From: Methylophilus medardicus
GTDB lineage: Bacteria > Pseudomonadota > Gammaproteobacteria > Burkholderiales > Methylophilaceae
Direction of reading: 5' to 3'
Length of the DNA stretch: 64,000 bases
Assembly (NCBI RefSeq): GCF_006363955.1
Contig: NZ_CP040948.1
Coordinates: forward strand, 1,860,001-1,924,000
Shown: positions 1,480 to 34,133 of the stretch, piece after piece
How the letters are laid out: the number at the start of each line of letters is the position of its first letter
Position numbering within the stretch: position 1 is the stretch's first letter
Made by a program: the position numbers and the translations under genes
The notes under the pieces: generated by a model
Databases searched by the model: none
What the model was told of the DNA's origin: nothing
The model's input: the letters and a program-made list of their open reading frames with translations, nothing else

Positions 1480-1860
1480 ATGTATAGACTGCTCTTGGTT
1501 GAAGATTCTGCGCTGATCCGTGACGTGATCGTTGAGATGTTGCATGACTGTGATCAGCTCGATGTGAAGGACATCGCCACCACCAGTGACGAGGCGATTG
1601 CGCTGCTTAATAGCAAACAGTACGACATGATTGTGTTGGACATTGAACTCGCCAAGGGCACGGGCTTTGATGTGGTGCGGCATACGCGCCAGCAAAGTTA
1701 TGCATTCAAAGCCCCAGATATCGTCATGTTAACCAATCATGGCAACAGCTATTACCGTAACCTCGCGCACAACATGGGCGTGGAGTATTTTTTTGATAAA
1801 TCTCTGCAGTTTGACGAATGCATGGATGTCATTCAGCAACACGCCAGCGCAGTGAGCTAG
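1480..1860 (+). CDS. Stand-alone receiver-domain protein (CheY-like)
   Basis: The 126-residue protein is only a receiver domain: acidic residues in LVEDSA, phospho-acceptor Asp in MIVLDIEL, Thr in VMLTNHG and Lys in YFFDKSLQ. There is no output domain, so it would act by protein contact or as a phosphate relay. It follows the NarL-type regulator by 85 bases and precedes a membrane-anchored protein by 26 bases. The kinase that serves it is not in the window. Confidence 0.85.
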   Translation: MYRLLLVEDSALIRDVIVEMLHDCDQLDVKDIATTSDEAIALLNSKQYDMIVLDIELAKGTGFDVVRHTRQQSYAFKAPDIVMLTNHGNSYYRNLAHNMGVEYFFDKSLQFDECMDVIQQHASAVS

Positions 1861-20123: not shown

Positions 20124-21371
20124 TTATTTGCCGTATACCGGAAACTGATCGGCCAAGGCATGTACTTTGGCTTTTACCGCCGCAATCACTTCGGCATTTT
20201 CAGGTTGCTCTAACACATCGGCGATCAGATTGGCCACTTGCTCAGCTTCGGCTTCTTTAAAACCGCGGGTGGTAATCGCAGGCGTACCGATACGAATGCC
20301 GGAGGTCACAAATGGGCTCTCGGGATCGTTAGGGATCGAGTTTTTATTGACGGTAATGTGCGCTTGGCCCAAATAAGCATCTGCCGCTTTACCGGTCAGC
20401 CCTTTAGGACGCAGATCTACCAAGAATACGTGGGACTCAGTACGGCCTGAAATAATGCGCAAACCACGTGCAGCCAGGGTAGTCGCCATGGTGCTGGCGT
20501 TTTTCACCACTTGTGCCTGATACGCTTTAAATTCCGGTTGGGCCGCCTCAAGGAACGCAGTCGCTTTACCCGCAATCACGTGCATCAACGGCCCCCCTTG
20601 CAAGCTAGGGAATACGTTTGAGTTGAGTGATTTTTCGAACTCTGCCTTGGCCATAATAATGCCGCCACGAGGACCGCGCAGCGTTTTGTGCGTAGTAGAA
20701 GTGACGAAATCGGCGTGTGGCACTGGGTTAGGATACACCCCACCCGCAATCAGACCAGAATAATGCGCCATGTCGACCATGAAATATGCGCCGACTTTTT
20801 TGGCGATTTCTGCCATACGTGCCCAATCAAAGCGCAAGGCGTAGGCTGACGCCCCGCCAATCAGCAGCTTCGGCTTGCACTCAATCGCAAGGCGCTCCAT
20901 TTCGTCGTAATCAATTTCTTCTTTTTCGTTTAAACCATAGGGCACGATATTAAACAGCTTACCGGAGAGGTTAGCCGGGGAGCCGTGCGTCAGATGCCCC
21001 CCGTGACCCAGGTTCATCCCCATGATGGTGTCACCTGGTTTTAGAATAGAAAAATAAACGGCTTGGTTGGCTTGTGAACCAGAATGTGGCTGCACATTGG
21101 CATATTCCGCGCCATACAAAGCTTTCAGGCGATCAATCGCCAATTGTTCCACTTGGTCAACAAATTCACAACCACCATAAAAACGCTTGCCTGGATAACC
21201 CTCTGCATACTTGTTCGTCAGTTGTGAGCCTTGGGTTTCCATCACCGCAGGGCTGGTGTAGTTTTCTGAGGCAATCAACTCAATATGTTGATGTTGACGC
21301 TCTACCTCAGAAGAAATCATTTCGGCCAACGCCGGGTCTGCAACGCTTAAATTTCTTGAAAAGCTAAACAT
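20124..21371 (-). CDS. glyA: Serine hydroxymethyltransferase
   Basis: The 415-residue protein has the SHMT blocks [36 protein letters not shown] and the PLP lysine in [14 protein letters not shown]. It interconverts serine and glycine with tetrahydrofolate, feeding one-carbon units. ATG 21371 is used rather than the TTG at 21380. The 368-base gap upstream contains a nitrogen-type enhancer, a sigma-54 promoter and a small transcript on the other strand. Confidence 0.97.
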
Positions 21372-21511: not shown

Positions 21512-21548
21512 TGCGCCAGCATGGCACGACTTGCACCATGCTGGTGCA
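21512..21548 (+). promoter_or_regulatory. Tandem NtrC-type binding sites
   Basis: TGCACCATGCTGGTGCA at 21532-21548 is a perfect dyad (TGCACCA-N3-TGGTGCA) equal to the classical NtrC consensus. TGCGCCAGCATGGCACG at 21512-21528 is a weaker copy. Their centres are 20 bases apart, about two helical turns, as in glnA-type enhancers. They lie roughly 120 and 140 bases before the start site predicted for the sigma-54 promoter at 21633. Confidence 0.75.
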
Positions 21549-21632
21549 AGGAATCAAACCATCCGCAATCGGAAAAGAATCAAATCCGGTCGTAAACTAT
21601 CTATGTATCTGATTTCAAAGTAAATTAAAATC

Positions 21633-21648
21633 TGGCACAGCTTATGCT
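21633..21648 (+). promoter_or_regulatory. Sigma-54 (RpoN) promoter
   Basis: TGGCAC, five bases, then ATGCT give the -24/-12 pattern: GG at 21634-21635 and GC at 21646-21647, with exactly 10 bases between. TGGCACAG is identical to the start of the well-known glnA promoter element. Transcription should start near 21659 going right, away from glyA. Confidence 0.8.
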
Positions 21649-21658
21649 TATTGTTATC

Positions 21659-21716
21659 CGTAAGCGTTATCTCCAAAATCGCTCCCTAAACCCAACTTCG
21701 GTTGGGTTCTTTTTTG
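21659..21716 (+). ncRNA. Predicted sigma-54/NtrC-dependent small RNA
   Basis: From the predicted start (about 21659) to the end of the U-tract the transcript would be about 57 nt. It has no ATG-led frame of note. It carries two pyrimidine-rich pieces, ATCTCC and GCTCCC, which could pair with ribosome-binding sites (GGAG/GGGAG), followed by a strong terminator hairpin. It lies wholly between glyA and the AsmA gene, both on the other strand, so no mRNA is downstream. Exact ends and targets are inferred. Confidence 0.6.
21688..21715 (+). terminator. Rho-independent terminator of the small RNA
   Basis: AACCCAAC-TTCG-GTTGGGTT forms an 8-bp stem closed by a stable UUCG tetraloop and is followed by CTTTTTT. 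The T-tract is on the + strand only, so it ends rightward transcription; no protein gene on this strand precedes it. Confidence 0.85.
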
Positions 21717-21739: not shown

Positions 21740-23773
21740 TCACCTTTGCTTACGGGTTTTTAACTGTTGCAAGGTATGTTGACAGCCATCATCGTGGACA
21801 GCGGAAGCACTGCCAGGATCAAGAAATGGCAAGATGGCGGCAAATGGATTGATCAATGCCAGCAAAACCCCGCCTGCAACCCGCGCGGCAATCGGGCCGG
21901 GACTCACCGTCACTTGCGGATCGACAAAGGGACCGGTCACCAAAATTGGCGCACGCACGGTAAACGGCGAAAAGTTTTTCGGACTGGCCTGCACATTCAG
22001 ATTGAGTTGCTCCTGACCCAAATTCACCTCGCCCTGCATCGTCACCGTGGTCACCGGTGTATCAATCAGGGCGGCATCAGGCGTCAATACCCCTTGTTTC
22101 GCGTGCCATCCCATCACGGCGCATTGCATCGGCAAAGGCTGATCGCCCTTGATCAGCACGCCCACCGCTTGGGCGATATCCAAGCCTGCCGCCTCAACGA
22201 CTAAATGTGAAATTTCACCTTTTGCCACCATGAACGCCAATTCGCCATCGAGCGATTTGAGCAATGCAGCAGTCGAGCGTCCCCGCCCTTGCAGTTTGGC
22301 TTTGCCACTCAACTGCCCCTGAATGTAAGGCGGTGGCGTTGGGGGATGGGCTTGCTGGTCGGTTTTTTTGCTGGCGGCAGGCGCCACATTTAACCATTGC
22401 TCCAAGCGCACATCGCGCACGGCTAACTGAATATCCCACGCAGGCGCCGGGGGCGGTGACAAATCCTCATTGGTGGAATCATGTGCGTCGATGCTGAGCG
22501 CGCCTGACAGCGTGCCTTGCGCTGTGCTGGCTTGCAACTCCGCAAGACTCAATTTGTGTTTTATCAGCGTCAGCCGTAATTTAAGTGGGGCAATCCGCTG
22601 CTTAAATGCTTTGCCTAGATCTACAGCGTCAAGGTGCACATCAATATCCGCGTTCATGCGGCCATAGGTGGTAAAGTCCAAAGATTCATCAGGAAAAAGC
22701 TTACCCGGATGCGCAACGGTCGTTGCACTGCCTTGATCTGCACCGAAAGCCGGCGCCAAATCGGACAACATCAATAAAGCGCCTTGCAATTTACCGCTGA
22801 GCATGGGGGTTTCGGGCGCAAAGTCATACACAAACTGCCCAGATAATCGACTGCGGCCAATCTGCGCAGTGGGAATATCCACTTGCCATTGATCAACGCC
22901 TTTTTCAATCATGGCATTGACCTTAAAAGCTGCTGTGCGCGGAAAAGTCAGGTTCAACAAATCCCCCACATCTGCCAGTGAATTCCCCTTCACTTCTACC
23001 TTGCCCTTGACACGTTGTGTGCCAAACAGGTCATAAACCATGCCGCGAAATTGTGCTTGGACGGCACCATAATTCAACCAGCCTTGCGCGTTCATCGGCG
23101 GCGAGTCCTTTGTTTGGGTGGCGACTGGTAAAAAACCTTGCGTGACCAGTTCCCCTTGAATGGGCAATCGGCGAAACTTACCGGTTAATTTGACGCGTGA
23201 TTCAGGTGTGGCTAAATGCGTCCCTTCTTCGGTAAAAAAATCGACCGTGAGTTGGGCGTCAGTGACGGCATCTGATACATTGGCGCGCCCTTGCGTGACT
23301 GCAAGCTGCTCAATGCGCGGAAACGGCCGCGGAGGACTAGTCTCCTCTAGGGCAAACTCCCAACTGGCATGCCGATCCGCCCGCCGGAGGAGTTCAGCAT
23401 TGAGCTGATCGGCACGAATCGACTCGACCCGGTAGGGATCGCCCGCTTTGAGTGTCAATAGATCACGATAGCGCAGCTGCAAGTCCAAGCCGTGCGCATC
23501 CACAAAATAAGGCGCTTCAAACCCCTCTGGCGCAGAAATTTTTAAGCCGCCCGCTTGCAAACGAAGCCCGCCCAATAATTGCAGCCGAAACGGGCGTTCG
23601 ATCTCCACCTTTCGATGCAATTGTGCCTGCAGCCACTGTTGCATCGGTTGCCGTAAAAATGGCCAGCTCGCTATTTCGCAGAGGATCACAGCCAATATCA
23701 GGGCGACCACCCCCCCGGCAAACCACCAGCGCTTGGAGAGATATTTTTTGCTTGTTATTTGGGTATCATTCAT
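21740..23773 (-). CDS. AsmA family protein
   Basis: The 677-residue protein has one N-terminal membrane anchor (about 15-37), then FLRQPMQQWLQAQLHRKVEI and a long periplasmic beta-rich region. The C-terminal part has the family block DGELAFMVAKGEISHLVVEAAGLDIAQAV, FSPFTVRAPILVTGPFVDPQV and NPFAAILPFLDPG. AsmA-like proteins are bridge-like lipid-transfer candidates between the two membranes. It is transcribed leftward on its own. Confidence 0.88.
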   Translation of the reverse strand: MNDTQITSKKYLSKRWWFAGGVVALILAVILCEIASWPFLRQPMQQWLQAQLHRKVEIERPFRLQLLGGLRLQAGGLKISAPEGFEAPYFVDAHGLDLQLRYRDLLTLKAGDPYRVESIRADQLNAELLRRADRHASWEFALEETSPPRPFPRIEQLAVTQGRANVSDAVTDAQLTVDFFTEEGTHLATPESRVKLTGKFRRLPIQGELVTQGFLPVATQTKDSPPMNAQGWLNYGAVQAQFRGMVYDLFGTQRVKGKVEVKGNSLADVGDLLNLTFPRTAAFKVNAMIEKGVDQWQVDIPTAQIGRSRLSGQFVYDFAPETPMLSGKLQGALLMLSDLAPAFGADQGSATTVAHPGKLFPDESLDFTTYGRMNADIDVHLDAVDLGKAFKQRIAPLKLRLTLIKHKLSLAELQASTAQGTLSGALSIDAHDSTNEDLSPPPAPAWDIQLAVRDVRLEQWLNVAPAASKKTDQQAHPPTPPPYIQGQLSGKAKLQGRGRSTAALLKSLDGELAFMVAKGEISHLVVEAAGLDIAQAVGVLIKGDQPLPMQCAVMGWHAKQGVLTPDAALIDTPVTTVTMQGEVNLGQEQLNLNVQASPKNFSPFTVRAPILVTGPFVDPQVTVSPGPIAARVAGGVLLALINPFAAILPFLDPGSASAVHDDGCQHTLQQLKTRKQR

Positions 23774-32840: not shown

Positions 32841-34133
32841 TTATCGGACGGTGAGCAATTCACGCCAGCTCCCAGTGTAATTTTGACTCAGATAATGACG
32901 TTGCATGCGCCATGTCTGGACGCCCGCTTCGGCGGCCACCTTGATGGTCCCCTTGGCATACTTCATGTTGATCTTATCCATGACCTCCATTAAGGCTTGG
33001 GATTTAGGATCGTCATGGCTAAACCCAAACAGATCGCTCTGCAGTGCTTTGTTGGACACCGTGTCCAGCATCATGACGCCGCACTTTTGATAATACACAC
33101 CAGGACGGTAGATTTTTTTGAGCAACCACAAAGCGGCACGGATGATTTTAGGCGTCGAATTGGTGGGGGATGGAAAGCCCATCGACAAACTATTGGCATA
33201 GTATTGCGCTTGGTCATGCGGGCTATTCATGATAAAAACAAAAACACCATTGGCATATAGCGCTTTGGTGCGCATTCTTTCAGCCGCCACGCCGGCATGA
33301 AAAGCAATCGCCTGACTAAGTGCCTCCAATGTAGACGCCCGTTGACCAAAAGAACGCGAGCTCATAACCTGCTTGGCCTCAGGCAAGGTGTACTCCATCT
33401 CAATCAACACCTCACCGTTCAACTCTTTAACTGTCCGCTCAAGTACTACGCCAAAGGCATCCCGGATGCGTTTTGGATCTGCATTTTTTAACCGCAATAC
33501 GGTATGCACGCCCAGCTTATTCAGTTTTGCTTCTAATCGATGACCAACCCCCCATACCTTAGACACCGGAAGCGCAGCCAGCATCTGGTCGAGCTCGGTC
33601 TGACTCAGTTGTGTGAGATCACACACGCCCTGCCAGTGCGCCTGTTTTTTTGCACAATGGTTGGCCAATTTGGCTAATGTTTTGCTATAGCCGATGCCAA
33701 CACAAATAGGTAACCCGATAGAATCCTTTACATCCTGTTTGATGGCCTGACCATAGTCCGTCAAATTGCCAGGCATACCGGTCATCTCTAAAAACACCTC
33801 GTCAATCGAGTACTTTTCCATCTTTGGTGAGTACCTAGACACAATGGTCGCAAATCGGTTACTCATGTTTGCATAGAGCTCATAATTGGATGAAAAAACG
33901 ACGGCACCCAATTTTGTTGCGGCGTCTTTGATCTCGAACCAGGGGCGAGCCATATAGATGTCCAGATGTTCTTTCGCCAACCGATTTTGCGCAATGACAC
34001 AGCCGTCGTTATTGGATAACACGACGACAGGTTTACCACGAAGATCAGGACGGAACACCTCCTCGCAGGAGGCATACATCGAATTCACATCCGCCAGAGC
34101 GAACACCCGCCTAGTCGAAGGAGTGAATGACAT
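32841..34133 (-). CDS. umuC: DNA polymerase V catalytic subunit UmuC (Y-family)
   Basis: The 430-residue protein has the Y-family palm motifs FALADVNSMYASCEEVFRP and YSIDEVFLEM, the KPVVVLSNNDGCVIA block and the helix-hairpin-helix VWGVGHRLEAKLNKLGVHT. A clamp-binding motif (QSDLFGF) lies near residue 384. It overlaps umuD by 23 bases. Together with cleaved UmuD it performs error-prone lesion bypass. Confidence 0.96.
   Translation of the reverse strand: MSFTPSTRRVFALADVNSMYASCEEVFRPDLRGKPVVVLSNNDGCVIAQNRLAKEHLDIYMARPWFEIKDAATKLGAVVFSSNYELYANMSNRFATIVSRYSPKMEKYSIDEVFLEMTGMPGNLTDYGQAIKQDVKDSIGLPICVGIGYSKTLAKLANHCAKKQAHWQGVCDLTQLSQTELDQMLAALPVSKVWGVGHRLEAKLNKLGVHTVLRLKNADPKRIRDAFGVVLERTVKELNGEVLIEMEYTLPEAKQVMSSRSFGQRASTLEALSQAIAFHAGVAAERMRTKALYANGVFVFIMNSPHDQAQYYANSLSMGFPSPTNSTPKIIRAALWLLKKIYRPGVYYQKCGVMMLDTVSNKALQSDLFGFSHDDPKSQALMEVMDKINMKYAKGTIKVAAEAGVQTWRMQRHYLSQNYTGSWRELLTVR

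Follow-up and report, generated by a model that had tools for sequence, protein, structure and literature searches.

The intergenic region between glyA and an AsmA-family gene of Methylophilus medardicus carries an NtrC-type dyad, a sigma-54 promoter and an intrinsic terminator, which raises the question of whether it encodes a nitrogen-controlled small RNA and, if so, which genes this RNA would regulate. To our knowledge, it is unsettled how methylotrophs slow methanol oxidation when amino acids cannot be built, and unspent formaldehyde is toxic. On balance, we favor the reading that the locus encodes a stand-alone, trans-acting Methylophilaceae RNA of about 57 nt that would be driven by NtrC and sigma-54 under nitrogen shortage and would lower XoxF, the lanthanide methanol dehydrogenase. 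If this is true, a nitrogen-controlled RNA aimed at xoxF would constitute a direct link between carbon and nitrogen, and nitrogen supply would set the rate at which these bacteria burn methanol.

The predicted RNA gene and its distribution

The features of the locus are collected in Table 1, where positions refer to the window, i.e., the whole stretch of 64,000 nucleotides that was analysed. Both the sigma-54 promoter and the UUCG-capped terminator of the original prediction were found in place, the promoter being the sole exact match in the window to the search pattern used. The predicted RNA starts 12 nt past the promoter GC and ends with a terminator whose stem (21689-21708) is directly followed by a C and six T residues. 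A weak hairpin, its loop (AUCUCCAAAA) strongly conserved, is followed by a stretch rich in C and by the covarying terminator; the 57 nt fold with -14.3 kcal/mol (z -3.85), and 1 of 200 shuffles was equally good. Two NtrC dyads had been proposed, and one of them is indeed perfect, whereas the other agrees with the consensus at just 8 of 12 positions and is kept in several relatives mainly in its TGCGCC half (read by eye). The placement of the RNA behind glyA was wrong: glyA lies on the minus strand, and the RNA is therefore divergent from it and upstream. In the Rfam scan of the window, every family stayed below its cut-off. A peptide encoded in the 57-nt RNA was rejected, as visual inspection showed no start codon followed by an open frame.

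Table 1. Features of the small RNA locus and its flanks (window positions)
Feature	Position	Strand	Remarks
Possible weak second NtrC site (TGCGCCAGCATGGCACG)	21512..21528	.	8/12 consensus positions (manual count)
Perfect NtrC-type dyad TGCACC-N5-GGTGCA	21532..21548	.	Sole 0-mismatch site of the window
Sigma-54 promoter, GG-N10-GC, TGGCAC-N5-ATGCTT	21633..21649	+	Present at 59/60 loci
Predicted small RNA, 57 nt	21659..21715	+	Start inferred from the promoter
5' hairpin AGCG/CGCU	21663..21683	+	Fold and alignment
Seed AUCUCCAAA in the hairpin loop	21669..21677	+	Near-invariant in alignment A1; complements the xoxF Shine-Dalgarno region
Intrinsic terminator, UUCG loop and U tail	21689..21715	+	
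glyA, divergent neighbor outside the RNA gene	20124..21371	-	Serine hydroxymethyltransferase, NF000586, 646.9 bits
AsmA-family gene, other flank of the RNA	21740-23773	-	Pfam 80.7 bits

Of the 22 genomes of the same genus (g1), the own genome included, 20 gave a partial match to the region in a DNA search of 61 genomes. By a covariance-model search of 187 Methylophilaceae genomes combined with locus-by-locus reading, the RNA gene was identified in 60 genomes of four genera, namely g1, the Methylotenera-like genus g7, g46 and g10. These 60 loci comprise 20 from alignment A1, 10 from a second reading and 30 of 40 further fetched regions, weak covariance-model matches without locus reading being left out of the count. 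The other ten fetched regions (L128, L142-L149, L151), among them a second match in the own genome (C1:2289040), were dropped as terminators of other genes or as otherwise lacking the core, and L019 and L022 were judged chance matches. All promoters counted at the 60 loci have the GG and GC demanded by the search pattern, and the T before GC, though outside its requirement, is present at 59 of 59. The proposed NtrC/sigma-54 small RNA, whose transcript is predicted, is strongly supported by a promoter-RNA-terminator unit kept in 60 genomes, with glyA inside the fetched stretch at 51 of the 60 loci (more than 1 kb off at one of them; some misses are contig ends). At locus L095 (G147, about 1516), the core and terminator occur with no preceding sigma-54 promoter, and glyA is more than 1 kb distant; the copy has been rearranged, or two sequences were joined in the assembly.

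The 20 sequences of alignment A1 share the almost invariant core AGCG-YAUAUCUCCAAAAU-CGCUCCC. In the terminator stem, four pairs have changed on both sides in a compensated manner, and 99% of the cells are paired versus 24-48% with slid partners. The 5' hairpin is without covariation support, as three of its four pairs are constant throughout A1; UCUCC, the better conserved of the two anti-Shine-Dalgarno pieces noted originally, is unpaired within the hairpin loop in 43 of 59 predicted folds. Beyond the family, no covariance-model match in a sample of 300 genomes of the order scored above 35.1 bits, nine non-family loci (L103-L111) checked for the core gave no core-terminator unit and one chance line in L110, and core-pattern matches in 42 stretches outside Methylophilaceae were judged chance from their expected number. 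Taken together, these results make a real RNA gene nearly certain.

In five loci (L016, L017, L018, L020 and L021), the place of the asmA-family gene is taken by a gene whose beginning resembles iscX and which lies after the RNA in the same orientation; for the L017 product, Pfam gives Fe-S_assembly with 114.5 bits. An antisense role toward the AsmA-family gene was rejected, since the RNA persists in several genomes where the IscX-family gene substitutes for it.

NtrC sites and sigma-54

We searched for the best match to TGCACC-N5-GGTGCA within 300 nt upstream and compared it with shuffles. The best upstream dyads of 57 loci average 9.1 of 12 positions versus 7.5 in shuffled sequences. In the own genus, 19 of 20 testable loci have their best dyad centered 91-104 nt ahead of the -24 GG, and this constant distance bears out the NtrC side of the original prediction. 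Conservation of the dyads in relatives is clear in this genus and partial in two others: dyads lie at 91-93 nt in five of the ten g46 loci and at 79-93 nt in all four g10 loci, two of the latter with shuffle P of 0.07-0.08. Among the 23 loci of g7, the NtrC dyad is mostly absent, just two weak ones being found at 89-103 nt. The own genome possesses rpoN, hfq and, far from the RNA at C1:2504143, ntrC (716 bits), which is above the cut-off in 152 of the 187 family genomes. NtrC control of the RNA in the own genus is very likely. The RNA may also be bound by Hfq.

Candidate targets and rival explanations

The loop of the RNA complements the Shine-Dalgarno region of xoxF, mostly by 9 bases (range 7-12). 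We searched eight hand-picked genomes for start codons preceded by the complement of the loop that the RNA shares with a sibling (see below), using TTTGGAGA-N2..9-ATG. The own genome has 13 matches, eight of them ahead of plausible genes: xoxF, hps, rpmB and genes for a secreted protein, an ankyrin-type protein and PsiF-, PA2169- and PA2171-like proteins. The complement UUUGGAGA precedes the xoxF start in all eight genomes, representing three genera, and hps in five of the eight, with three of these five hps confirmed by profile. Mainly recurrent pattern matches were fetched, so other targets are under-sampled. The suggested link to one-carbon metabolism would run through xoxF and perhaps hps, and not through glyA, which was rejected as a target because its leader is without visible seed complement. 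Also rejected was umuC (window 32841-34133), which gives the strongest duplex (-28.4) but via G-rich sequence and G-U pairs. In two g7 genomes, UUUGGAGA is found before the start of pqqC, a gene for the methanol dehydrogenase cofactor (L266 in G137 and L268 in G136). Profile searches matched no family for the secreted protein L241 or for the L276 protein, and an assignment of the latter as MxaK was dropped.

XoxF enzymes are recognized by a lanthanide-binding Asp located two positions past the catalytic Asp. The WDYDG motif of the target enzyme aligns with WDYDG of XoxF 6dam and WDFDG of 6oc5, the corresponding motif of MxaF 1g72 being WDFAG; judged by this motif, the target enzyme is of the XoxF type. 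In the four RNA-bearing genera, UUU precedes GGAG in 61 of 62 xoxF leaders (G027 counted twice), 19 of the 62 coming from genomes without a verified RNA copy; in other genera UUU is found in 4 of 48 leaders, and the remaining 44 carry UAU or UAC. The UUU state may go back to one ancestral event.

Co-variation between RNAs and leaders was assessed in 43 pairs, where cognate contiguous pairing averages 9.21 bases versus 8.92 with permuted leaders, a difference reached in 0 of 5000 permutations. In g7 alone (19 pairs), the values are 9.00 and 8.58 (0 of 5000 permutations; 1 of 5000 with G-U pairs), and the 17 pairs of the own genus give no permutation signal (9.06 cognate, 9.12 permuted). When the partner columns were moved by 1-3 positions, z was 4.1 at 0 and -1.4 to 1.6 elsewhere, the highest off-register value, at +3, corresponding to 34 of 400 permutations (12 of 400 without g1). 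The cognate excess also survives permutation within genus (z 2.7, 4 of 400). The xoxF leaders thus appear to fit the RNA of their own genome better than those of other genomes, with an excess that is clear only in the true register and to which shared ancestry may partly contribute. Among individual changes, UUCUCC is matched by GGAGAA in G096 and G097 of g10 and likewise in G027 at its two xoxF copies, relatives having AUCUCC with GGAGAU; AUCUCCAAAUAA is matched by UUAUUUGGAGAU on an unrelated leader in G160, and AUCUCCAAU by AUUGGAGAU in G162. Pairing is kept on unrelated xoxF leaders in G027, G144 and G160, and the exceptions with uncompensated changes are G015, G144, G198, G143 and G155. 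We regard xoxF, with moderate confidence, as a direct target of the RNA.

The proposed mechanism would operate as follows. Under nitrogen shortage, phosphorylated NtrC occupying the perfect dyad (21532-21548) would activate sigma-54 RNA polymerase at the promoter (21633-21649), and transcription of the RNA would stop at the intrinsic terminator. The loop (AUCUCCAAA) would then pair with the xoxF mRNA, and possibly that of hps (3-hexulose-6-phosphate synthase), at the Shine-Dalgarno region, covering the ribosome-binding site and blocking translation; repression is the predicted outcome because the seed overlaps the Shine-Dalgarno sequence. Less XoxF, and perhaps less HPS, would be made, and methanol oxidation and formaldehyde fixation would be lowered to match the nitrogen supply.

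Several rival explanations were weighed against this mechanism. A chance cluster of motifs without a transcript would agree with the frequency of loose matches in the window, which is not above expectation for dyads at up to 2 mismatches (4 versus 5.7 expected) or promoters at up to 1 mismatch (2 versus 3.3). The elements were therefore judged real not from such counts but because they are conserved, and the near-invariant core over many genomes, together with the compensated terminator changes, already contradicts a chance origin, which is extremely improbable. It is also improbable, albeit less so, that a sigma-54 activator other than NtrC serves the promoter in part or all of the family in response to a signal other than nitrogen; the scarcity of dyads in g7 and a sibling RNA that lacks an NtrC site at the usual distance (see below) would be explained in this way, but the own genus, with its perfect or almost perfect NtrC dyads at a constant distance, speaks against it.

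Alternatively, a real NtrC/sigma-54 RNA may have other main targets, e.g., rpmB, pqqC, nitrogen genes or many GGAG mRNAs, the fit to xoxF reflecting a strong Shine-Dalgarno sequence and shared ancestry. The seed is indeed a general anti-Shine-Dalgarno sequence, further genes carry its complement, and neither xoxF (z -0.5) nor hps (z -0.3) stands out by duplex energy when 48 genes of the window are compared. Against this stand the cognate excess, which is clear in the true register alone and present also within genus, and the pairing retained on the unrelated leaders of G027, G144 and G160, and we consider other main targets rather unlikely, with regulation of xoxF preferred.

Known nitrogen-controlled RNAs and a sibling RNA

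Small RNAs under NtrC control are known from other proteobacteria. According to PMC8395346, NrsZ of Pseudomonas aeruginosa is a stand-alone small RNA of about 226 nt whose synthesis under nitrogen limitation depends on NtrB/NtrC and RpoN; encoded between ntrC and PA5126, it undergoes processing and acts as an activator of rhlA. In contrast, the Methylophilaceae RNA is about 57 nt long and divergent from glyA, with the ntrC of its genome far away, and xoxF repression is predicted for it. In Sinorhizobium meliloti, NfeR1 (alpha-r14) has anti-Shine-Dalgarno motifs in unpaired hairpin regions, with CCUCCUCCC in each of its three hairpins, and NtrC acts at its promoter as a repressor, the available part of the report giving no sigma-54 signature (PMC10746234). 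The RNA described here has instead one 5' hairpin plus a terminator, the loop AUCUCCAAAA and a sigma-54 promoter. Positive regulation by NtrC is reported for MmgR/suhB (RF00519), as judged from a title in the reference list of PMC9170634; no match to RF00519 (cut-off 41 bits) was obtained for the glyA-side RNA in the loci scanned. The homologous CcsR1-4 of Rhodobacter sphaeroides modulate C1 metabolism, but they differ in having an RpoHI/RpoHII promoter and forming one transcript with ccaF1, according to the available text of PMC10253847. By the features tested, the RNA falls outside the NrsZ, alpha-r14 and suhB/mmgR families and probably works like them; it represents a new RNA family within the known kind of NtrC/sigma-54 small RNAs, with an unexpected predicted target. 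Among the open-access matches listed, no title or abstract concerned a Methylophilaceae small RNA or one acting on methanol dehydrogenase, and no small RNA was found in the available parts of PMC3728764 and PMC8399692.

A sibling sigma-54 RNA (L184) was identified in the own genome outside the window, between glgA and orn (C1:1072181-1072265, minus strand). Its design is like that of the glyA-side RNA: a hairpin AGCUU-CUCC-AAAGCU with the loop UCUCCAAAGCU is followed by UUCUCCUCCC and a terminator. By a strict pattern, the sibling occurs in 66 of the 187 family genomes and 11 of 24 genera; in an order sample of 300 genomes, it was found in only four, all of them Methylophilaceae. Its best score against RF00519 is 23.2 bits, in 3 of 10 loci, far under the 41-bit cut-off. 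At 19 sibling loci no NtrC dyad was seen at the usual spacing, nor was a common upstream dyad found, and its activator is therefore probably another than NtrC. About 3 kb from the sibling, the own genome also has a second xoxF-like gene (C1:1067091-1068953, 90% identical), whose leader CCGGAGAUAU (in L360) is without UUUGGAGA. A tentative and rather doubtful extension is that the two RNAs form a Methylophilaceae pair with the same loop (UCUCCAAA), one answering to NtrC and nitrogen and the glgA/orn one, near the second xoxF, to a different activator; both would act on the translation starts of xoxF and hps, so that nitrogen and a second signal would gate lanthanide-dependent methanol oxidation post-transcriptionally. 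Finally, a longer candidate RNA that contains UCUCCA and CUCCUCC and has a sigma-54 promoter was observed in genus g44 (L195 in G103, about 1488-1630, minus strand) between the ammonium-transporter gene amt and gshA, and is possibly a third member of the group, located at a nitrogen gene.
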